Of a stretch of DNA of 64,000 bases, positions 44,844 to 64,000 are shown one piece after another (the stretch's first letter is position 1; every line of letters begins with the position of its first letter). This DNA comes from Colwellia sp. MB3u-45. Lineage in GTDB: Bacteria > Pseudomonadota > Gammaproteobacteria > Enterobacterales > Alteromonadaceae. The DNA lies in assembly GCF_014077005.1 (NCBI RefSeq), contig NZ_JACGVC010000033.1, positions 62,001-126,000 on the forward strand. Reading direction: 5' to 3'. Below the pieces are notes generated by a model that saw only the letters and a list, made by a program, of their open reading frames with translations, was not told the origin of the DNA and did not search any database. The translations under genes and the position numbers were made by a program.

Positions 44844-44944
44844 TTAGTAAACTCCACATTTTTCATCGTGTTGATAGGTGAAGAAAAAACACCCGAATCA
44901 AGTCCAATGTAAATAGTGCTTTTGGTGGGCGTGGGCAGGATTTT

Positions 44945-45341
44945 GTATAGATAAAATAAAACATTATTTTTCATAAAATCAAATAACATCATGCCTCATA
45001 TTTTCCATCTTGACATCTATTTTATGTTTTTAAGGGAGTGAAACCTGGCTTTTTTCGTCTGTTATTTAACCGCCCTCACGTAATTAATAATTCAAAAAAA
45101 GCACTTTCTGCTGTTGTTAAAACCAGCGCTGAATATTGTTTATGATGATGAACGGCTTTTATTCAAACAGACTTATCTGAGGAGGCGATCTACTTTGTGG
45201 GGGCTATATGAGGCCAATAATTCAAGGCTAATAATTCAACGACTTCGACATTTTTTGCCTTCAGGTGACTGAGTATCTTTTGGATCACCAATGGATGTTC
45301 ATTAGACACATCTCTGTGTCTACCCCTTAGGGTGGCACTCG
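44945..45341 (-). mobile_element. IS91/ISCR-like remnant, copy A
   Basis: The part 45190-45341 (minus) reads as a decayed C terminus of an IS91-type transposase (VIQKILSHLKAKN). The noncoding part 44945-45189 is similar along its length to 57102-57328 (copy B), for example CATCTTGACATCTATTTTAT and AGCACTTTCTGCTGTTG. In IS91/ISCR elements the region beyond the transposase 3' end carries oriIS. The element abuts a truncated dehydrogenase gene, so it inserted there or caused a deletion. Confidence 0.6.
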
Positions 45342-50435: not shown

Positions 50436-50463
50436 AGTAATAGCAAGGCCAATAGCCGGCGAT

Positions 50464-50570
50464 TTCTAGTCTATTACTCAAGGGTTTTCACATAATTCAG
50501 AATTCAAAACAATCGTTTTCTGCTGTTGTTAAAAAAAACTCTAAATATTACTTATGATGATGCGGTGCTT
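50464..50570 (-). mobile_element. IS91/ISCR-like terminal fragment, copy C
   Basis: This sequence matches parts of the noncoding ends of copies A and B, for example GTCTATTACTCAAGGGTTTT and TTTCTGCTGTTG. No transposase sequence is present. It lies 28 bases after the dadA stop and is more diverged than A and B. Confidence 0.5.
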
Positions 50571-52620: not shown

Positions 52621-54450
52621 TTAATCTAATCCCAAAAAACCACCCGTTTGGTGAGCCCAGAGTTGCGCATAGATCCCACTGGCATTAATGAGCTCTTGAT
52701 GGGTGCCTTGTTCAACAATACGACCTTGATCTAATACGATAAGTCTATCCATGGCCGCAATGGTCGAGAGTCGATGAGCTATGGCTATCACCGTTTTTCC
52801 TTCCATTAATTCATACAATGACTCTTGGATCGCCGCTTCAACTTCAGAATCTAATGCTGAAGTGGCCTCATCTAATAACAAAATAGGGGCATTTTTTAAT
52901 AACACACGTGCAATGGCAATCCGTTGACGTTGGCCACCTGATAGTTTTACCCCACGTTCGCCGACTTGAGCATCAAGCCCTTTATTACCAAAGGGATCAG
53001 ATAAGCTTTCAATAAAGCCAGCCGCTTGTGCTTGAGTGATTGCCGCCATTAATTGCTCATCACTTGCATCTGGGTCGCCGTAAAGGATATTTTCACGAAT
53101 CGAACGGTGCAACAGCGATGTATCCTGAGTCACCATACCAATATTTGCCCGTAATGAATCTTGAGTAATATCGGTTATAGGTTGATTATCAATGAGTATT
53201 TGACCTTTTTCAACGTCATAAAAACGCATTAATAAGTTCACTAAAGTCGACTTGCCTGCACCAGAACGCCCGACAAGACCCACTTTTTCACCCGCTTTAA
53301 TATTCAGGTTTAGCTGTTCAATGACACCCGCTTTTTCGCCATAATGAAAACAAACCTGATTAAATTCTATTTTACCTTGATTAACAACAATGTCTTTGGC
53401 GTCGGGTTTGTCTTGAATGGCAATGGGTTTAGACAGAGTATTCATCCCATCTATCACAGTGCCTATATTTTCAAACAGTGAACTAATTTCCCACATGATC
53501 CATTGTGACATGCCGTTTAGGCGTAATGCTAAACTTACTGCAATGGCAATAGCACCGACAGTAATCGCACTGTCAGCCCATAACCAAATAGACACAGCGG
53601 TAATGGTAAATGCTAAAAGATAATTGATGATTTGTACCAAAACATTAATGACAGTGACCAAGCGCATTTGGCCATAAACGGTTGTTAAAAAACGCATCAT
53701 ACTGTCTTGAGCGTAGTCAGCTTCTTGGCTGGTATGTGAGAATAGTTTTACCGTTGATATATTGCTATAACTGTCAACAATGCGGCCGGTCATGTTTGAA
53801 CGCGCATCGGCTTGTTCTGTTGATATCGCTTTTAGCTTGGGGACTAATTTCCATTGGATCAATACGTATGCCACGAGCCACGCAAGCATGGGTAACATTA
53901 AACGCACATCAGCAGCGGCAATCATGACCAGCATAGAAGTGAAATACACTAAAATATACATAAGTACATCCAGTAACTTCATCACCGTTTCACGCACCGC
54001 AAGCGAGGTTTGCATAACCTTTGTGGCAATTCGGCCAGCAAAGTCATCTTGATAGAATGACACACTCTGCTTGAGTAAATAACGATGCGCTTGCCAGCGA
54101 ATGGCCATGGGGTAGTTACCCAAAAGCGTTTGATGCACGATAGAAGAATGTAACCAGACAATTACAGGAATGACCACTAACACCATCACCGACATAGTGA
54201 TAAACCTTGTGCCTTCATCTTGCCACAATGTTTGCGGATCTTTGGTCACTAACAAATCCACTAATTGGCCCATAAAACCAAACAGCGACACTTCTAAGAT
54301 AGCCAGTACCGCCGTAAGTACCGACATGATAATTAATGGTAAACCAAATCCGCGGGTATAATGGCGGCAAAAGGCATATAAGGTGTTAGGTGGTTGAGTG
54401 GGTTCTTCTTCTGGTAATGCTTGGGTCAATGATTCAAAAAATTTAAACAT
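52621..54450 (-). CDS. ABC exporter, fused permease and ATPase
   Basis: ABCB-type half transporter of 609 residues, working as a dimer in the inner membrane. Six membrane helices lie in residues about 35-330, and the nucleotide-binding domain begins about 360. Walker A is GRSGAGKST (394-401), followed by signature LSGGQRQRIAIARVLL, Walker B LLLDEATSALDSE and H-loop IAHRLSTI. It resembles MsbA/multidrug or lipid exporters; the substrate is unknown. The start is ATG 54450. Residues 202-276 and the 5' end with upstream DNA exist again as a broken copy at 57708-58258. The gene itself is intact. Confidence 0.92.
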   Translation of the reverse strand: MFKFFESLTQALPEEEPTQPPNTLYAFCRHYTRGFGLPLIIMSVLTAVLAILEVSLFGFMGQLVDLLVTKDPQTLWQDEGTRFITMSVMVLVVIPVIVWLHSSIVHQTLLGNYPMAIRWQAHRYLLKQSVSFYQDDFAGRIATKVMQTSLAVRETVMKLLDVLMYILVYFTSMLVMIAAADVRLMLPMLAWLVAYVLIQWKLVPKLKAISTEQADARSNMTGRIVDSYSNISTVKLFSHTSQEADYAQDSMMRFLTTVYGQMRLVTVINVLVQIINYLLAFTITAVSIWLWADSAITVGAIAIAVSLALRLNGMSQWIMWEISSLFENIGTVIDGMNTLSKPIAIQDKPDAKDIVVNQGKIEFNQVCFHYGEKAGVIEQLNLNIKAGEKVGLVGRSGAGKSTLVNLLMRFYDVEKGQILIDNQPITDITQDSLRANIGMVTQDTSLLHRSIRENILYGDPDASDEQLMAAITQAQAAGFIESLSDPFGNKGLDAQVGERGVKLSGGQRQRIAIARVLLKNAPILLLDEATSALDSEVEAAIQESLYELMEGKTVIAIAHRLSTIAAMDRLIVLDQGRIVEQGTHQELINASGIYAQLWAHQTGGFLGLD

Positions 54451-57101: not shown

Positions 57102-57707
57102 GTGTATAGGCAAAATAAAACGTCATTTTTCATACAATCAAAATACATGATGTCTGATATTTTCCATCTTGACATCTATTTTATCTTCTTGAGGGAGTGA
57201 ACGTCGGTTATTTCAGTCTATTACTCAAGGGTTTTTACATAATTCAAAGTAAGCACTTTCTGCTGTTGTGAAAACCAGCACTGAATATTGTTTATGATCA
57301 TGAACAGCTTTTATTCAAACAGACTTATCTAAGGCTGTGCTCTACTTTGTGGCGGCAATAATTCGACGACTTCGTCATTTTTTGTCTTCAGCTGACTGAG
57401 TATCTTTTCGATCAACAATAGATGTTCATTAGATACATCCTTTTATCTAAACCCTGGGGGCAGCATTCGCTGTGCAAATCGTCTTTCCTGACGATTTTTC
57501 AATGCTTGCTATAGCCTTAACCGCACCACCGCATTGCTCACAGGTTTCTATTGCTATCCCAAAACCCGTTTAAGTCTTTGTGCCCAGATCATCGACTGGT
57601 GTTTTTGTGCCCGTGTTCCCACCGCCCTGTAGCCAATGCTTGTTTAGCCTTATTTCGTTTTGCCGGCGTTATTATCACGCGGTGCCGAGAGTTCGCAAGC
57701 AAGCCAT
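57102..57707 (-). mobile_element. IS91/ISCR-like remnant, copy B
   Basis: Minus strand: a transposase C terminus broken by at least two frameshifts covers 57329-57707, with VIITPAKRNKAKQALATG, then WAQRLKRVLG, then IETCEQCGGAVKAIA, then LLIEKILSQLKTKN. Its order matches IS91/ISCR Y2-type transposases. The noncoding part 57102-57328, beyond the transposase end, matches copy A and corresponds to the oriIS side. The N-terminal part with the catalytic tyrosines is absent, replaced by captured DNA. Confidence 0.72.
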
Positions 57708-58258
57708 TTGATGATTTGTACCAAGACATTAATGACAGTGACCAAGCGCATTTGGCCATAAACGGTTGTTAAAAAACGCATCATACTGTCTTGAGCGTAG
57801 TCAGCTTCTTGGCTGGTATGTGAGAATAGTTTTACCGTTGATATATTGCTATAACTGTCAACAATGCGGCCGGTCATGTTTGAACGTGCATCGGCTTGTT
57901 CTTTTGATATCGCTTTTAGCTTTGGGACTAATCTAAGATAGCGAGTACCGCCGTAAGTACCGACATGATAATTAATGGCAAACCAAATCCGCGAGTATAA
58001 TGGCGGCAAAAGGCATATAAGGTGTTAGGTGGTTGGTTGGGTGGGTTCTTCTTGTGGTAATGCTTGGGTCAATGATTAAAAAAATTTAAACATCTAATGC
58101 TCTGACTTCATGATGAAAATTCTGCCGCCTAAGATAACGCAAAATGCCCAGATGTCATGGGTTAAATTGTTACTAAATACGAAACGAATGAGTTCGGTTT
58201 CCCGCGAGTCTGTTGGTTGTGCGGCTGTAAAGTAATAATATTAATACGCAGTGCAGAA
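57708..58258 (-). pseudogene. captured, rearranged copy of part of the ABC exporter gene
   Basis: Block 1, 57708-57932, repeats 53624-53848 with about 4 differences. Block 2, 57934-58258, repeats 54296-54620, including the ABC gene 5' end and 170 bases upstream. About 447 bp between the blocks are missing here. Near-identity points to a fairly recent event. Block 1 abuts the IS91-like transposase fragment at its 5' side, the side from which one-ended transposition picks up neighbouring DNA. Confidence 0.88.
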
Positions 58259-58792
58259 TATGTTGTGATGCCTTAACCAGTTGCTTCAAAAACCTGTAGC
58301 TCTCTGTGTCGGTCACCATCTGTATGTTAATAGTAATTTTTGAGCTGAGTCTTGTTTATTGATATAACCTAGCACAGCACAATGTAATATTATTGCTGCA
58401 GACAATTCATCATCGTGCATTGATAAGACGATAATCCCCATTTGTGGTCACCAACAATAAAAATGTTTTGTACTTTTAGTCCAGACACTGACAAGATGGA
58501 AAGCATGAAGAATCATATTTTTTATTAACTTATGAAAAATAACGTTTTATTTTACCTATACACCATGTAGTATTTTTAAAATAAATATTGTGGTTGTTTG
58601 GTGTTTGAGTCATTTGCGCTATAATTTTTATATACATAGCCCCCACACACGGGATGGCAAAACCACGTCAACTTACCACAATATATTTTAGCAACAAAAA
58701 TACCCTTCGCACTTGATTTTTATGTAGCTTATAGACCAAGGATTTGAAAAATAGATGTTTATGCTCCTTTCAACCATGAGATAAAAACCACG

Positions 58793-59605
58793 ATGAATAT
58801 CATCAATAGGAACAATGTCAGAGTATACGGTAAAGGCGCTAAAACAATCGTTTTTGCCCATGGCTATGGTTGTGATCAGTCTATGTGGCGGAGAGTCAGT
58901 CCGTCCTTTGAAGATGAATATAGGGTGGTATTATTTGACTATGTCGGCGTAGGTTTGTCTAATGCAGATGCTTATGATCCTCTGCGTTATTCAAGTTTGG
59001 CCGGTTATGCCAAAGATATTGTCGAAATTTGTACAGCACTTGATTTGCAAAATGCGATCTTGGTAGGGCATTCGGTCAGCAGTATGATTAGCTTGTTAGC
59101 TGCAATCGAAATTCCCCATAGAATCTCAACGTTGATCATGATTTGCCCAACCCCACGCTATTTGAACGACCGACCCGATTACATAGGCGGCTTTGAACAG
59201 GCCGACATTGAAGGTTTGCTCGATACAATCGATCGCAATCAACCAGGTTGGGCAGCTCATCTCGCCGGTATTGTTGTAAATAACCCCGATCAACCAGAAT
59301 TGGCACAAGAACTGGAAGACAGTTTTTGTGCCATGGATCCCGCCATAGCTAAGCGTTTTGCCAAAGCAACTTTTTTGGCGGATAACCGTTCTGATCTGGT
59401 TGGTTTTGACAAGCCCTGTTTGATCCTCCAGTGTCAGAACGATTTAGTTGCACCGAATGTCGTAGGCGATTATTTACATCAACATTTGCTTAATAGTCAT
59501 TTGCAGCAGATGAAAGCGACCGGACACAGTCCTCATATGAGTCATCCGCTTGAAACCATCAAATTGATCAAAGAATACCTTGCCAGTCATGTAAAGCAGA
59601 ACTAA
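58793..59605 (+). CDS. alpha/beta hydrolase, RsbQ-like
   Basis: Alpha/beta hydrolase of 270 residues, the same size as Bacillus subtilis RsbQ. The lid and core pattern FAHGYGCDQSMWRRVSPSF and LFDYVGVGLSNADAY is very close to RsbQ and the plant KAI2/D14 receptors. The nucleophile is Ser94 in VGHSVSSM, with Asp217 in QNDLVAP and a His in GHSPHMSHP. RsbQ is needed to activate the PAS-domain phosphatase RsbP, probably by supplying a small molecule. Here the next gene, 16 bases downstream, encodes a PAS-domain protein, so a similar supply of a ligand is likely. Base composition is GC-richer than the surroundings. Confidence 0.88.
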   Translation: MNIINRNNVRVYGKGAKTIVFAHGYGCDQSMWRRVSPSFEDEYRVVLFDYVGVGLSNADAYDPLRYSSLAGYAKDIVEICTALDLQNAILVGHSVSSMISLLAAIEIPHRISTLIMICPTPRYLNDRPDYIGGFEQADIEGLLDTIDRNQPGWAAHLAGIVVNNPDQPELAQELEDSFCAMDPAIAKRFAKATFLADNRSDLVGFDKPCLILQCQNDLVAPNVVGDYLHQHLLNSHLQQMKATGHSPHMSHPLETIKLIKEYLASHVKQN

Positions 59606-59621
59606 AGAGTGAATATTTAGA

Positions 59622-62093
59622 GTGGATATTTCAAAATTTAATCTTATGGAGGCACCCTGCGGCTTGTTTATCTTTGATGACAGCTTAAGGGTAATGACGG
59701 TTAATCAAACCTTAGCCACTATGCTTAACCTTACGATACAAGACTTAGTGGGTAAAAATTTGGATGTAATGCTGACATCATCCAACCGTTTGCAATTTCA
59801 TCTGCAAGTGATGCCAATATTGCATCTTCAGGGGCATATTGAAGAGATTTCCATGTCTCTGGCTGGCGCAAAAGGGATCGAAATCCCGGTCATTTTTAAT
59901 GCCGTGCGACGAGAAGTTCAGGGGAGTGCCTATACTGAATGTGTGGTCATGGCTATGAACGAACGTAAACGTCTGGAAGATGAGTTGTTTAATATAAAAA
60001 AAGCAACCGAACAAGTGCCCGGTTCCCTTTATCAATTTCAGCTTTTTGCCGACGGGAGTACCTGCTTTCCTTACACGAGTGAGGGAATACGTGATATCTA
60101 TGAGTTAAGCCCGCTACAGTTAAAAAAAGACGCAGATTTAGCGTTTAAACGCATTCACTTGGATGATGTAGAGGTGCTCAAACAAGACATGGTGGATTCT
60201 GCCAAAAAGCTCACTGTATGGCATCAACAATATCGTGTGATTTTACCCAAAGCGGGCATCCGCTGGCTGGAGGGTAATGCCACCCCTGAAGCCCGCGCCG
60301 ATGGCAGTACAATATGGCATGGTTATATTAACGATATTACCGAGCGAAAAGCGTTAGAACTTTCGTTGTCCAACGAATTTGAACGCTCGCGAGTGACGCT
60401 AAGTTCCATCGGCGATGCGGTTATTACCACCAATGAGCGCCAAGTGGTCGAATACATCAACCCCATTGCAGAGCAATTAACTGGCTGGAAATTGGCCGAT
60501 GCCATAGGTCAACCCGTAACTAGGGTGTTTAACATCATTAATCAACATACTCGGCTGGTGGCAAAAAGCCCTATTGCCCATGTTTTGGACGATGGTGCCA
60601 TTGTTGGGCTAACTCGCGACACAGTCTTGCTCAGTAAGGATGGAAGTGAGTATTCGCTGGAATGCTCAGCAGCACCGATTTTTACCCTTGGTGATGTAAT
60701 AACGGGTGTCGTTATGGTTTTTCGTGATGTAACCGGCCAAAAAAGACTGAAGGAGGAAGTGGATCATCATCGTGCCAGTCATGATCATTTGACTGGACTG
60801 GCGAACCGCAGAGAATTTGATCGTAAATTACTTGAAATGTTTGATTCATCAATTTCTACTGGTGTTGCACATGTATTGTGTTCCATCGATTTGGATCAGT
60901 TTAAGATAGTCAATGACAGCTGTGGACATTCTGCTGGCAACACACTATTAAAAGAAATTTCGGCGATACTTACTCTAAACGTGTGTGACAAAGATCTGGT
61001 GGCGCGAACCGGGGGGGATGAATTTTCTCTTTTACTTGAGGGCTATGATCTCAAAGCGGCTCAACGAATAGCACAACAGGCTTGTGACAAAATTGCGAAC
61101 ATTCGTTTTTATCACAAAGGTAAATTTGTTCACGTCAGTGCCAGCATTGGCCTAGTAGCTTTCGATGGGAAATGGGAAAATGCCCAGGCAGTGCAACTGG
61201 CTGCCGTTAGCGCCTGTTTAGCTGCGAAACATCAAGGTGGCGGTCGTGTACAAATATATTCAGATACAGATTTAACGGTAATGGAGCTGCGAGATCAGAT
61301 GCAGTGGGCTTCTCGCTTGCAACAAGCCATTAATGAAAATCGCTTTGAACTTTTTGCCCAACCCATCATGGCACTTGATCAACAAGCAGAACAAGGACTA
61401 CATTTTGAAGTGCTATTGCGCTTACGTGATACCGATGGAAGTCTGGTCTCGCCTGCGTTATTTATGGCTTCCGCTGAACGATTTGGCTTAGCTGGGCAAA
61501 TCGATCGTTGGCTAGTAAATCGAGTCTTAGAGTGGATGAAAACCTATGCTCATGAGTTGGATAAAATTAATATAATCGCCGTAAACTTATCTGGAAAGTC
61601 GGTTGGTGATCGTGATTTTCATCACTTTTTGCTCGAGGCATTGGATCACGCTCAGGTACCGGTACAAAAAATTTCATTCGAAATTACTGAAACAGCAGCA
61701 ATCGATAACCTAGATATCGCCACTGAGTTTATTACTATGCTGCATCAGCGCGGTGCGAAAATATCCCTCGATGATTTTGGCAGTGGTATGTCATCAATGG
61801 CTTATCTTAAAAAACTTGCGGTTGATTATTTGAAAATTGACGGACAGTTTGTGAAAGATATGGCAAACGACAGAGTTGATTGTGCGATGGTTCGTAGTAT
61901 TAATGAAATTGCGCATTTAACCGGAAAAGTCACTATTGCTGAGTTTGTTGAAAATGCCGATATATTGATGTTATTAAAAGATATAGGTATTGATTTTGCC
62001 CAGGGATATCACATTGGCAAACCACAGCCAATCAATGAAATTTTTGCCTGGAAAAATATAACGAATACAAGACTAAGCGGTGAAGATCAGTAG
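59622..62093 (+). CDS. three-PAS protein with GGDEF and EAL domains
   Basis: Protein of 823 residues with no membrane segment. The PAS domains lie at about 8-115, 120-245 (PAS_3-like, ends WHGYINDITERK) and 250-375 (ends VFRDVTGQKRL). The GGDEF domain at about 385-540 has an intact GGDEF (464-468), but the I-site position reads CDKD (455-458), so product inhibition is probably lost. The EAL domain at about 560-815 reads FEVLLRLRD where EALLRW is usual, yet the other catalytic residues are present (ITETAAI, LDDFGSGMSS, YLKIDG, AEFVEN). The start is taken as GTG 59622; ATG 59646 is an alternative. It is in an operon with the RsbQ-like hydrolase, and its first PAS is the likely ligand receiver. 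Confidence 0.92.
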   Translation: MDISKFNLMEAPCGLFIFDDSLRVMTVNQTLATMLNLTIQDLVGKNLDVMLTSSNRLQFHLQVMPILHLQGHIEEISMSLAGAKGIEIPVIFNAVRREVQGSAYTECVVMAMNERKRLEDELFNIKKATEQVPGSLYQFQLFADGSTCFPYTSEGIRDIYELSPLQLKKDADLAFKRIHLDDVEVLKQDMVDSAKKLTVWHQQYRVILPKAGIRWLEGNATPEARADGSTIWHGYINDITERKALELSLSNEFERSRVTLSSIGDAVITTNERQVVEYINPIAEQLTGWKLADAIGQPVTRVFNIINQHTRLVAKSPIAHVLDDGAIVGLTRDTVLLSKDGSEYSLECSAAPIFTLGDVITGVVMVFRDVTGQKRLKEEVDHHRASHDHLTGLANRREFDRKLLEMFDSSISTGVAHVLCSIDLDQFKIVNDSCGHSAGNTLLKEISAILTLNVCDKDLVARTGGDEFSLLLEGYDLKAAQRIAQQACDKIANIRFYHKGKFVHVSASIGLVAFDGKWENAQAVQLAAVSACLAAKHQGGGRVQIYSDTDLTVMELRDQMQWASRLQQAINENRFELFAQPIMALDQQAEQGLHFEVLLRLRDTDGSLVSPALFMASAERFGLAGQIDRWLVNRVLEWMKTYAHELDKINIIAVNLSGKSVGDRDFHHFLLEALDHAQVPVQKISFEITETAAIDNLDIATEFITMLHQRGAKISLDDFGSGMSSMAYLKKLAVDYLKIDGQFVKDMANDRVDCAMVRSINEIAHLTGKVTIAEFVENADILMLLKDIGIDFAQGYHIGKPQPINEIFAWKNITNTRLSGEDQ

Positions 62094-62251
62094 ATGGAAT
62101 TTTCGTCGACAAAGGACTCATAGCGTTGAACGTTGTTAACGCATCTAGTTGAACGTTCTTAGCGCACTACTTTAACGTTTCTGACCCGTTGATTATTGAA
62201 GATAAACCCTGTGTTGATAGACATTGAAAATATTGTAACGCATCTAGACAG

Positions 62252-62815
62252 TCATTCAACCGCGACTCGAACCGCCTTGCGTGTTCGTGTGTTGTAGGCA
62301 ACAATCTCGCCGGACGAAGCCCCAATTCCAGATACAGCCTGGATGACCACTTGATGCGTGACCATTAGTGTAAGACTATTTTGGCTGAGCGCTGCAAGCT
62401 TTTCTTGCAGCAACTTAAGTGTTTCATTACGATCAGCATGCTCTTCAAAAAATGAGTTAAGACCAGCAAATCTTTCAACTTCGCCAAGTTGTAAAAGTTT
62501 GGCTGTTTCGAGGCAACGACACCAATAGCTTGAATAAATTTTATCAATCACTATAGCCGACTGCTTTAACTGCTGCCCTAATGAGATAGTTTGACTTCGA
62601 CCAACGGCATCCAGATTTCGCTGTGTATTGCATTGGTTAATAACAAAATTAGCGGGATCACCAAAACCCGGAGCAATAGCATGGCGCATCAATAGTACGT
62701 TGGCATCGATTTTCCGTAGCTTATCCATAATAGAATCAACATTTGTCGTGGCAAAGGCGTTCTGCACGCTAGCTGATAATATGACAAGAACTAATAATAA
62801 ATTACCTACTAGCAT
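62252..62815 (-). CDS. exported histidine-phosphatase-superfamily protein
   Basis: Protein of 187 residues. A signal peptide (LLLVLVILSASVQNAFA) directs it to the periplasm. The RHG-type motif is LLMRHA (Arg44, His45), followed by SSYWCRCLETAKLL with the second Arg, and VTHQVVIQAVSG with the second His. This places it in the phosphoglycerate mutase/SixA-like superfamily; a phosphatase role is likely, the substrate unknown. ATG 62815 is preferred for the signal peptide. The ATG at 62872 overlaps an inverted repeat and would add 19 residues before it. It follows the fatty acid transporter gene on the same strand. Confidence 0.85.
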   Translation of the reverse strand: MLVGNLLLVLVILSASVQNAFATTNVDSIMDKLRKIDANVLLMRHAIAPGFGDPANFVINQCNTQRNLDAVGRSQTISLGQQLKQSAIVIDKIYSSYWCRCLETAKLLQLGEVERFAGLNSFFEEHADRNETLKLLQEKLAALSQNSLTLMVTHQVVIQAVSGIGASSGEIVAYNTRTRKAVRVAVE

Positions 62816-62854
62816 GTATTTTGAGCCACTGTTGGTTAATATTATGATTAATAC

Positions 62855-62890
62855 AGTCACCTGATGTAACATATATTACATCAGGTGACT
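62855..62890 (-). terminator. 15-bp inverted repeat after the transporter gene
   Basis: AGTCACCTGATGTAA (62855-62869) and TTACATCAGGTGACT (62876-62890) form a perfect 15-bp stem with loop CATATA. It lies 44 bases after the transporter stop and about 40 bases before the phosphatase start. The following sequence on the minus strand is T-rich but not a clean T-run, so it could be a terminator or an operator. Confidence 0.55.
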
Positions 62891-62933: not shown

Positions 62934-64000
62934 CTATAAAAAAACTAATCCTAATGATATAACAATGCCAGAATAGACAAGTATAACTAAGCAATAACCC
63001 ATAATATCTCTTGCTCCAAGTTTAGCAATCCCCAACAATGGTAAAGCCCAAAATGGTTGTATCATGTTTGTCCAAGCATCTCCCCAGGCAATTGCCATTG
63101 CCGTTCTGGCCGTATCTACGCCAAGTTCAATGGCTGCTGGCATCATAATAGGTGCTTGAACAACCCACTGTCCTCCACCCGAGGGGACAAAAAAGTTCAC
63201 AACGCCTGCACTTAAAAAAGTAAATAAAGGAAAAGTATTTACTGTAGAGATATTAACAAAACCTTGTGAAATATATCCAGCAAGTGAAACACCATCTGGA
63301 CCCATAAATTTCATCAGTCCCATTATTCCAGCATAAAAAGGGAATTGTAGTAAAATACCACCGACATTTTTTGACGCATCAGCCACTGCACGTACTACTT
63401 TAATGGGTGTGCCATGTAAAATAATGGCAGTAAATAAGAAGATAAAATTAATTATATTCAAATTTAAAGCAAATCCATTTTCGATAAAATAAGTGAAAAT
63501 AAAACTATATCCTAAAACACCCAGTGCTCTATTTATCCATTTAGAATTTTCAAGCTTTTGCGCTGGCGTCATATTATTTTTATCTAATGTTTCCACTATT
63601 TCAGCTTCAAATAAGCGGGTATCCACTTCAATGGTTTTTTCTTTTGAAGGATGCATAAACTTTAGAATAAAAGGTAATGTAAGCACAAGTATGGCGACAA
63701 TAATTAAATTATATGACGAAAATATGGTTTCGCTTGTTGGAATAGCTTGTGTTAATGCCCCATTGGTTATTTCTGCTAGACCAGTAGATGAGGCAATCGT
63801 TAATGGAATAGAGCCTGAAAAGCCTGCATGCCAAATCAAAAAACCAACGTAGGCAGAAGCGATTAATAATGGATAATGAACACCTTTTACTTTATGAGCG
63901 ACTTCTCTCGCAAAAATTGCCCCAATAACTAAACCAAAGCCCCAGTTAATAAAACTGGCAACTAATGCAACAAAACTGACCAGAAGTATCGCTTGTCCTG
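62934..64000 (-). CDS. atoE: short-chain fatty acid transporter, AtoE-like, partial
   Basis: At least 355 residues; the 5' end runs off the right edge. The protein is a multi-helix membrane protein (more than seven helices visible). The beginning seen here, SFINWGFGLVIGAIFAREVA and SAYVGFLIWHAGFSGSIPL, and the C-terminal part NFFVPSGGGQWVVQAPIMMPAA with AWGDAWTNMIQPFWALPLLGIA match E. coli AtoE and the SCFA transporter family. It would import short-chain fatty acids such as acetoacetate or butyrate. A hairpin follows its stop. The gene name is by family resemblance. Confidence 0.9.
   Translation of the reverse strand, partial: GQAILLVSFVALVASFINWGFGLVIGAIFAREVAHKVKGVHYPLLIASAYVGFLIWHAGFSGSIPLTIASSTGLAEITNGALTQAIPTSETIFSSYNLIIVAILVLTLPFILKFMHPSKEKTIEVDTRLFEAEIVETLDKNNMTPAQKLENSKWINRALGVLGYSFIFTYFIENGFALNLNIINFIFLFTAIILHGTPIKVVRAVADASKNVGGILLQFPFYAGIMGLMKFMGPDGVSLAGYISQGFVNISTVNTFPLFTFLSAGVVNFFVPSGGGQWVVQAPIMMPAAIELGVDTARTAMAIAWGDAWTNMIQPFWALPLLGIAKLGARDIMGYCLVILVYSGIVISLGLVFL

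Follow-up and report, generated by a model that had tools for sequence, protein, structure and literature searches.

A 64,000-nucleotide stretch of the genome of Colwellia sp. MB3u-45 (the whole of which is called the window hereafter) carries a two-gene RsbQ-PAS sensing unit, which we read, with a probability of about 0.6, as an RsbQ-gated cyclic di-GMP (c-di-GMP) enzyme, most likely a net phosphodiesterase. A gene for an RsbQ-type hydrolase is followed in this unit by a gene for a PAS-PAS-PAS-GGDEF-EAL protein. RsbQ-PAS pairing with c-di-GMP output has been known since 2011 (Nadezhdin, Brody, Price 2011; PMC3183031). New, as far as the literature covered goes, are a clade of such pairs in which both partners have altered contact residues, and the apparent spread of this clade as a cassette. 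The unit comprises the following features:

58545-62256, no strand assigned: putative mobile cassette, the sole window segment with a blastn match to the 19.9 kb around the pair in genome G399
58793-59605, + strand: RsbQ-type alpha/beta hydrolase, 270 amino acids (open reading frame, Pfam, PDB match, AlphaFold2)
59622-62093, + strand: PAS-PAS-PAS-GGDEF-EAL protein, 823 amino acids, GTG start, 16 bases 3′ of the hydrolase gene
59622-59990, + strand: PAS1, RsbP-type, residues 1-123 (profile match, AlphaFold2 model, Foldseek)
60072-60311, + strand: PAS2 (Pfam PAS_3), residues 151-230
60390-60731, + strand: PAS3 (Pfam PAS), residues 257-370
60774-61244, + strand: GGDEF domain, residues 385-541 (Pfam; GGDEF motif intact, RxxD site CDKD)
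61314-62024, + strand: EAL domain, EVL variant, residues 565-801 (Pfam; usual catalytic motifs present)

The hydrolase matched the Pfam family Abhydrolase_1 (E = 1.3e-20). Its closest solved structure in a PDB search was Bacillus subtilis RsbQ (1wom, E = 2.2e-97), followed by Olei00960 (3qvm, 1.1e-76) and by the plant receptors KAI2/D14 at about 1e-56 or weaker. The catalytic triad consists of Ser94, Asp217, and His245, the last lying within the motif GHSPHMSHP. Across 163 aligned RsbQ sequences, Ser94 and Asp217 were invariant and His245 was found in 162 (Asn once); the triad was thus intact in 12/12 members of the window's clade (described below) and in 150/151 other RsbQs. In the AlphaFold2 model (mean predicted local distance difference test score, pLDDT, 94.6), four lid helices span residues 136-148, 150-162, 168-180, and 183-194. 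A four-helix lid is typical of RsbQ hydrolases and is also present in KAI2/D14.

Four domains of the partner protein were assigned by Pfam. PAS1 remained under the Pfam cut-off (PAS_7, 20.8 bits vs 27) and was identified with a profile built from 20 PAS domains of RsbQ partners, the window's own PAS1 included. Its AlphaFold2 model (mean pLDDT 94.2) has the PAS fold and returned 469 Foldseek matches at E ≤ 0.001 (best match 3olo_A, E = 3.3e-07). Residues 53-70 of PAS1 form the Falpha helix, in which RsbP positions 55 and 59 are occupied by Gln58 and Gln62. For residues 243-805, the nearest solved relative was PA0861 (RbdA, 5xgb; E = 3.6e-134). The initial annotation of the stretch had described a 270-residue hydrolase with Ser94, Asp217, and a GHSPHMSHP histidine, and, 16 bases further 3′, a gene for a c-di-GMP protein with the domain order PAS-PAS-PAS-GGDEF-EAL; reading frames, alignment, and domain assignments agree with this description throughout.

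Heme sensing by PAS1 was considered and is not supported. The Foldseek matches of PAS1 include the heme PAS domains of FixL and DosP, and His60 (RsbP position 57) is invariant in the 12-member clade, His being present in 21/151 other domains. In a profile alignment to FixL (1d06), the heme His falls on RsbP position 56, a Phe in the window's PAS1; the register is uncertain, since a count backwards from the Gly at the end of Falpha places it at His60. We take the FixL heme ligand to be the His that precedes Asp.

Linkage of the two genes was assessed in 173 RsbQ loci (56 + 80 + 37), mostly the best-scoring ones, of which L093 was excluded as it ends at a contig edge. An RsbP-type PAS domain was encoded directly downstream of RsbQ in 167 of the 172 testable loci, 163 times in an open frame (one fusion counted) and four times by six-frame search, including L126, where it is split between frames. 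The five loci without such a partner were L157, L182, L190, L206, and L208 (for the first three, only 1.5 kb of sequence was available). Of 162 open-frame pairs, picked from a search span of about 400-500 nt, 161 had a spacing of 100 nt or less. Pairing at this frequency far exceeds what chance would give, and the neighbourhood search proposed in the initial annotation, which asked whether the pair is conserved in other genomes, thus had a positive outcome.

RsbQ itself is patchily distributed. Matches at E ≤ 1e-40 were found in 8/17 genomes of the genus, 73/295 of the family, and 19/394, 3/369, and 20/398 genomes of the order, class, and phylum samples, respectively, as well as in 4/24 genomes of the genus of G399 and 100/294 of the family of L076 (an Oxalobacteraceae metagenome-assembled genome; referred to as the Oxalobacteraceae-type family). 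These samples overlap, and every sample includes its centre genome. Among the first 131 partners, Pfam outputs comprised GGDEF (at least 62), HATPase_c (at least 52), SpoIIE (at least 10), and EAL (at least 4); these are lower bounds, as some partners are cut by locus ends. One of the pairs is an apparent RsbQ-PAS-GGDEF fusion of 582 amino acids with a GGEEF motif (L060, 3178-4926, - strand), for which a sequencing error is possible. Its host G018, a single-contig genome, carries a separate RsbQ-PAS-GGDEF pair besides the fusion. Loci L203-L208 were rejected as further fusions because RsbQ stops there at its usual length despite long open frames.

The paper of Nadezhdin, Brody, Price (2011; PMC3183031) describes 45 adjacent RsbQ/RsbP-PAS gene pairs whose outputs are a PPM phosphatase, a histidine kinase, or a diguanylate cyclase, three of the cyclases carrying EAL. 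Psychromonas ingrahamii is listed there with two copies beside RsbQ, PAS-GGDEF and PAS-PAS-GGDEF-EAL. For B. subtilis, the same paper reports direct RsbQ-PAS contact, a need for the triad, and lower RsbQ binding for the RsbP PAS substitutions F55A and Y59A; it offers two models, both of which assume contact, with the hydrolase product as signal being part of Model 1, and it terms the cue mysterious. A later AlphaFold2 model of a 2RsbP/2RsbQ complex puts RsbQ between PAS domains and linkers (PMC12143880). In the open-access literature searched, no cue was named in titles or abstract starts, RsbQ and c-di-GMP occurred beyond PMC3183031 only in one paper with a single mention of each, and no paper was found that combines RsbQ, PAS domain, and KAI2. 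The earlier proposal of a hydrolase-to-c-di-GMP signalling pair resembling RsbQ/RsbP is therefore upheld by family membership and gene linkage, while its novelty falls to the 2011 paper. Its further suggestion, that the PAS region reads out a product or bound ligand of the hydrolase, comes near to one of the two published models but has to be set against the direct contact reported for B. subtilis and the fact that F55 and Y59 are not conserved here.

The mechanism that we propose runs as follows: (i) RsbQ would bind a small molecule and probably cleave it slowly; (ii) its lid would dock on the Falpha side of PAS1; (iii) the resulting change in PAS1 would be relayed via helical linkers through PAS2 and PAS3 to GGDEF-EAL; and (iv) the output would most likely be c-di-GMP breakdown by EAL, with GGDEF acting as a GTP-binding regulator or providing a second, cyclase activity. 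With a docking surface rebuilt on both partners, the pair may not cross-talk with a canonical RsbQ-PAS-GGDEF pair in the same cell. We infer the ligand, the docking face, the output direction, and the insulation of the pair; direct contact and the triad requirement would apply to the window pair by analogy with what PMC3183031 reports for B. subtilis.

The window's RsbQ belongs to a small group of 12. Its identity to RsbQs of its own family did not exceed 52%, except for G012 of the same genus (93%); further relatives were G399 of another family (94%) and nine Oxalobacteraceae-type genomes (63-73%), among them the genome of L076. The 12 members formed one clade with support 100/99 in a tree of 50 rows chosen out of the 163, and a 131-row tree gave 100/97 for the four members then known. 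No further members were detected in the order, class, and phylum samples, nor, beyond L076, among the best 80 named loci listed from the genome collection, a listing from which near relatives may be missing. All 12 partners lie directly downstream, have 805-841 amino acids (841 reflecting an over-long start), and align across PAS1, PAS2, PAS3, GGDEF, and EAL; Pfam was run on six of them (window, L056, L057, L076, L192, and L195). Outside this clade in the tree, L201 (2677-4848, + strand; genome G1035) also encodes an RsbQ-linked PAS-PAS-GGDEF-EAL protein, so that the EAL output arose or was retained more than once.

Within the clade, residues that mark the RsbP-type PAS are partly retained. 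C10, E72, and P86 (RsbP numbering) were kept in 12/12 members, and the window's PAS1 has C10, L48, E72, and P86, i.e. four of the nine class residues of PMC3183031. Class positions L13, Q53, and C56, for each of which the consensus letter is not given in the available text of PMC3183031, are Phe, Arg, and Phe in the window; among 151 other PAS1 domains, the same letters occurred in 22 (Phe13), 69 (Arg53), and 49 (Phe56). The two positions linked to contact in B. subtilis have changed. Position 55 is Gln in the window and Q, Q, L, E, M, M, M, M, M, E, G, G across the clade, never aromatic; outside the clade it is F or Y in 128/151 and V, L, or I in 21/151. Position 59, also Gln in the window, is Q or R in 12/12 clade members vs H, Y, or F in 141/151 others, and Pro62 is kept in 2/12 vs 147/151. 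No DIT motif follows PAS1 (the window has MNERKRLEDEL), D[IV]T being present in only 2/163 PAS1 domains.

On the hydrolase side, lid position 150 is Gln in 12/12 clade members and Y, F, or H in 148/151 others; positions 148, 151, 159, and 181 are likewise clade-specific. Five of the seven most clade-specific RsbQ positions lie within the lid (122-194; p of about 0.02, with the limit of seven positions and the lid boundaries fixed after the list had been viewed and position 270, covered in one other sequence, dropped). We regard the alignments as a lead, not as proof, that the docking surface was rebuilt on both partners of the clade.

Several observations weigh against a coordinated rebuilding. 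Two RsbQ positions beyond the lid, 36 and 59, are clade-specific as well, and the clade-specific changes fall on one branch of the tree, so that the counts do not represent independent events. Seven non-clade PAS1 domains have Gln (six) or Arg (one) at position 59, yet their RsbQs keep Y, F, or H at position 150. Altogether, ten non-clade PAS1 domains depart at position 59 (one with a gap), all of them with Y, F, or H at RsbQ 150, and L074 pairs RsbQ Gln150 with PAS1 His59. Further, as the nine Oxalobacteraceae-type hosts show no second RsbQ at E ≤ 1e-40, insulation from a paralog cannot explain the interface change there.

Covariation between RsbQ and PAS1 was calculated for 162 pairs (effective number about 100). 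The strongest covarying pairs overall look phylogenetic, the top one being RsbQ 214 with PAS 119. PAS column 62 (RsbP 59) had the largest excess of covariation with the lid (122-190) of 127 PAS columns and the second largest once the clade was left out; when columns were ranked by how many of their top ten partners lie in the lid, it came 4th with the clade and 7th without. The top partner of PAS column 58 (RsbP 55) was RsbQ 150 both with and without the clade, its rank by top-ten lid count being 6th and 40th, respectively. Covariation thus lends weak support to a possible lid-Falpha interface.

Changed contact positions also bear on two other explanations. Possibly, the hydrolase acts on an ester or lactone, and its product diffuses to a PAS sensor that works on its own, without protein contact. 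The triad, intact in 12/12 clade members and 150/151 others, would fit this explanation, as would the loss of the B. subtilis contact residues F55 and Y59 from the clade, and the product as signal has its place in Model 1 of PMC3183031, though Model 1 too assumes contact. Contact is nevertheless suggested by the near-obligate adjacency of the genes, the apparent fusion, their movement as a unit, and lid position 150, which changed in parallel, along with the direct binding that the same paper reports for B. subtilis; we therefore consider signalling by product alone unlikely. Alternatively, the changed Falpha may have uncoupled the hydrolase from PAS1, the pair being kept by hitch-hiking. This would account for the loss of both contact-linked positions (55 and 59) but is hard to reconcile with purifying selection on both genes (see below), adjacency in 12/12 members, retention of the triad, and the parallel change of the lid, and we judge it very improbable.

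When the window was compared by blastn with 19.9 kb around the pair in G399, 88.8% identity was found over 3718 bp and nothing else matched. Besides the two genes, the matching segment includes non-coding DNA, about 250 bp upstream and about 160 bp downstream. Synonymous divergence (dS, NG86 method) between window and G399 was 0.126 for rsbQ and 0.263 for the PAS gene, compared with 1.441 for rpoB; the RsbQs L002 and L059 of second pairs were 56% identical with saturated dS. Since only the cassette matches G399 and its dS lies far under that of rpoB, the two-gene cassette appears to have been transferred between families as one piece. The direction was probably out of the Oxalobacteraceae-type group, because the 50-row tree places the three copies of the window's order inside that group, with L191, L193, and L195 (support 97/95). 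The flanks of the cassette in G012 are common to the window, and entry into the genus therefore seems to predate the split of window and G012. Ratios of nonsynonymous to synonymous divergence (dN/dS) of 0.20 for rsbQ and 0.37 for the PAS gene indicate that both genes are under purifying selection; the value for the PAS gene exceeds that of rpoB (0.116), which counts against our reading.

Phage or plasmid carriage of the clade was considered and rejected. No RsbQ was found in phages at E ≤ 1e-20. Plasmid matches to RsbQ at E ≤ 1e-40 were found in 68 of 72,556 records, all at less than 60% identity and hence not of the window's clade, and 119 plasmid records matched residues 1-359 of the PAS protein, again all below 60%.

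As to the direction of the output, all usual catalytic positions are present in the window's EAL domain (EVLLR, VNLSG, FEITET, DDFGSG, LKID, AEFVE, and AQGY). The catalytic motifs of EAL domains are E(V)L, N, E, DD, K, E, and Q. Amino acid identity between window and G399 was 88% for EAL and 70% for GGDEF. The intact EAL motifs and the better conservation of EAL favour a phosphodiesterase with a regulatory GGDEF domain, as described for RbdA. In PMC7825114, the GGDEF-EAL part of RbdA showed phosphodiesterase and no diguanylate cyclase activity in one study, and another study cited there, with PAS included, found diguanylate cyclase activity and phosphodiesterase activity enhanced by GTP. The genome of the window contains 29 EAL matches.

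Net synthesis of c-di-GMP, with GGDEF dominant and EAL regulatory or decaying, would be the opposite outcome. The cyclase motif RTGGDEF is intact in the window, so that net cyclase activity is possible there, and the GGDEF motif is intact in 12/12 clade members. In L192 and L194 (2/12), EAL is degenerate (FQITET, DD to DN) while GGDEF and RxxD are intact; polarity may thus differ within the clade, other members being cyclases. Moreover, GGDEF was found in 47 and EAL in only 3 of the 56 RsbQ partners of the window's order. The RxxD inhibitory site is kept by the other 11/12 members and has lost its Arg in the window (CDKD). Some cyclases lack this product-inhibition site. Loss of the Arg alone would relieve cyclase inhibition and hence argues neither way on polarity. 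Given the intact EAL motifs of the window protein and the stronger conservation of EAL than of GGDEF, net synthesis seems improbable for this copy, and c-di-GMP breakdown remains our preferred output.

All three clade hosts of the window's order (G000, G012, and G399) possess a second pair, RsbQ-PAS-GGDEF (L002, L058, and L059), the RsbQ of which is 47% identical to the cassette RsbQ in the window's genome. None of the nine Oxalobacteraceae-type hosts has a second RsbQ at E ≤ 1e-40, and a push-pull design was consequently rejected as a general rule; it may apply only to the three hosts belonging to the window's order. Even there, the second pairs are only suggestive, because RsbQ is common in the genus and in that of G399 (frequencies given above). 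As a tentative extension, on balance doubtful, the cassette may represent an orthogonal pair, its lid and Falpha rewritten together, that travels as a self-contained unit and, in its three hosts within the window's order, adds a hydrolase-gated c-di-GMP-degrading arm beside a resident, likewise hydrolase-gated, c-di-GMP-making pair. Two related receptors, possibly for different ligands, would then exert opposite pushes on the same messenger.

Two further genes were annotated beyond the cassette:

62252-62872, opposite strand to the pair: histidine phosphatase superfamily gene (Pfam)
62934-63998, - strand: short-chain fatty acid transporter gene (SCFA_trans, E = 3.4e-137), beyond the histidine-phosphatase-like gene and cut by the window end

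Just 5′ of the cassette, 57701-58260 is a truncated copy of part of an ATP-binding cassette (ABC) transporter gene (52621-54450, - strand) and its upstream DNA, with 94-97% identity to the source in three blocks and 90% in a fourth. A dispersed repeat family occurs at 44944-45332, 57102-57459, and 50463-50562, with an inverted end at 58517-58563; the stretch 57102-57300 has six matches in its own genome. The ABC fragment is enclosed by the inverted pair 57102-57134/58531-58563 (33 nt, 94%), which directly adjoins the cassette at its left end (58545). In G399, a weak match to an IS200-like transposase, under the Pfam cut-off, lies directly beside the cassette (L057, 5615-6595, - strand). No transfer RNA gene was found in the window, L056, or L057. 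A riboswitch or known RNA upstream was discarded, as there was no Rfam match up to E = 1 within 58300-62400. Promoter and terminator scans gave 10 and 4 hits vs shuffle means of 9.6 (standard deviation 2.8) and 3.1 (1.9), respectively.

A rewritten contact surface, an apparent fusion, and a two-gene unit that appears to have moved together would allow direct tests of where RsbQ docks on PAS and whether docking can be given a new specificity. An active pair would mean that a bacterial hydrolase receptor, kin of the plant karrikin and strigolactone receptors, sets c-di-GMP.

Among known systems, the plant KAI2/D14 receptors belong by sequence to the same hydrolase branch and share the triad and four-helix lid of our model, but match the hydrolase more weakly (about 1e-56) than RsbQ does. 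Their partners are F-box and SMXL proteins, not PAS proteins. The sensory N-terminus of RbdA differs from that of the 823-residue protein. In other respects, P. aeruginosa RbdA (PA0861, 5xgb) is similar, its PAS-GGDEF-EAL part aligning with residues 243-805, although an RsbQ partner is not mentioned for it in the available part of PMC7825114. B. subtilis RsbQ/RsbP provides the nearest solved relative of the hydrolase and has the same gene order (PMC3183031); in contrast to the window protein, RsbP ends in a PPM phosphatase and carries F55 and Y59. Closest overall is the RsbQ-PAS module as exemplified by P. ingrahamii A1SX34: rsbQ lies directly upstream, the RsbP-type PAS is the most N-terminal domain, no DIT motif follows PAS1, and further PAS and then GGDEF-EAL come behind it; P. 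ingrahamii likewise has two c-di-GMP RsbQ pairs in one genome. Behind its first PAS, A1SX34 has a single heterologous one, whereas the window protein has three PAS domains in all. The window pair is further set apart from the module by the absence of the class residues at Falpha positions 55 and 59, by Gln at RsbQ lid position 150, and by its apparent horizontal movement as a unit.

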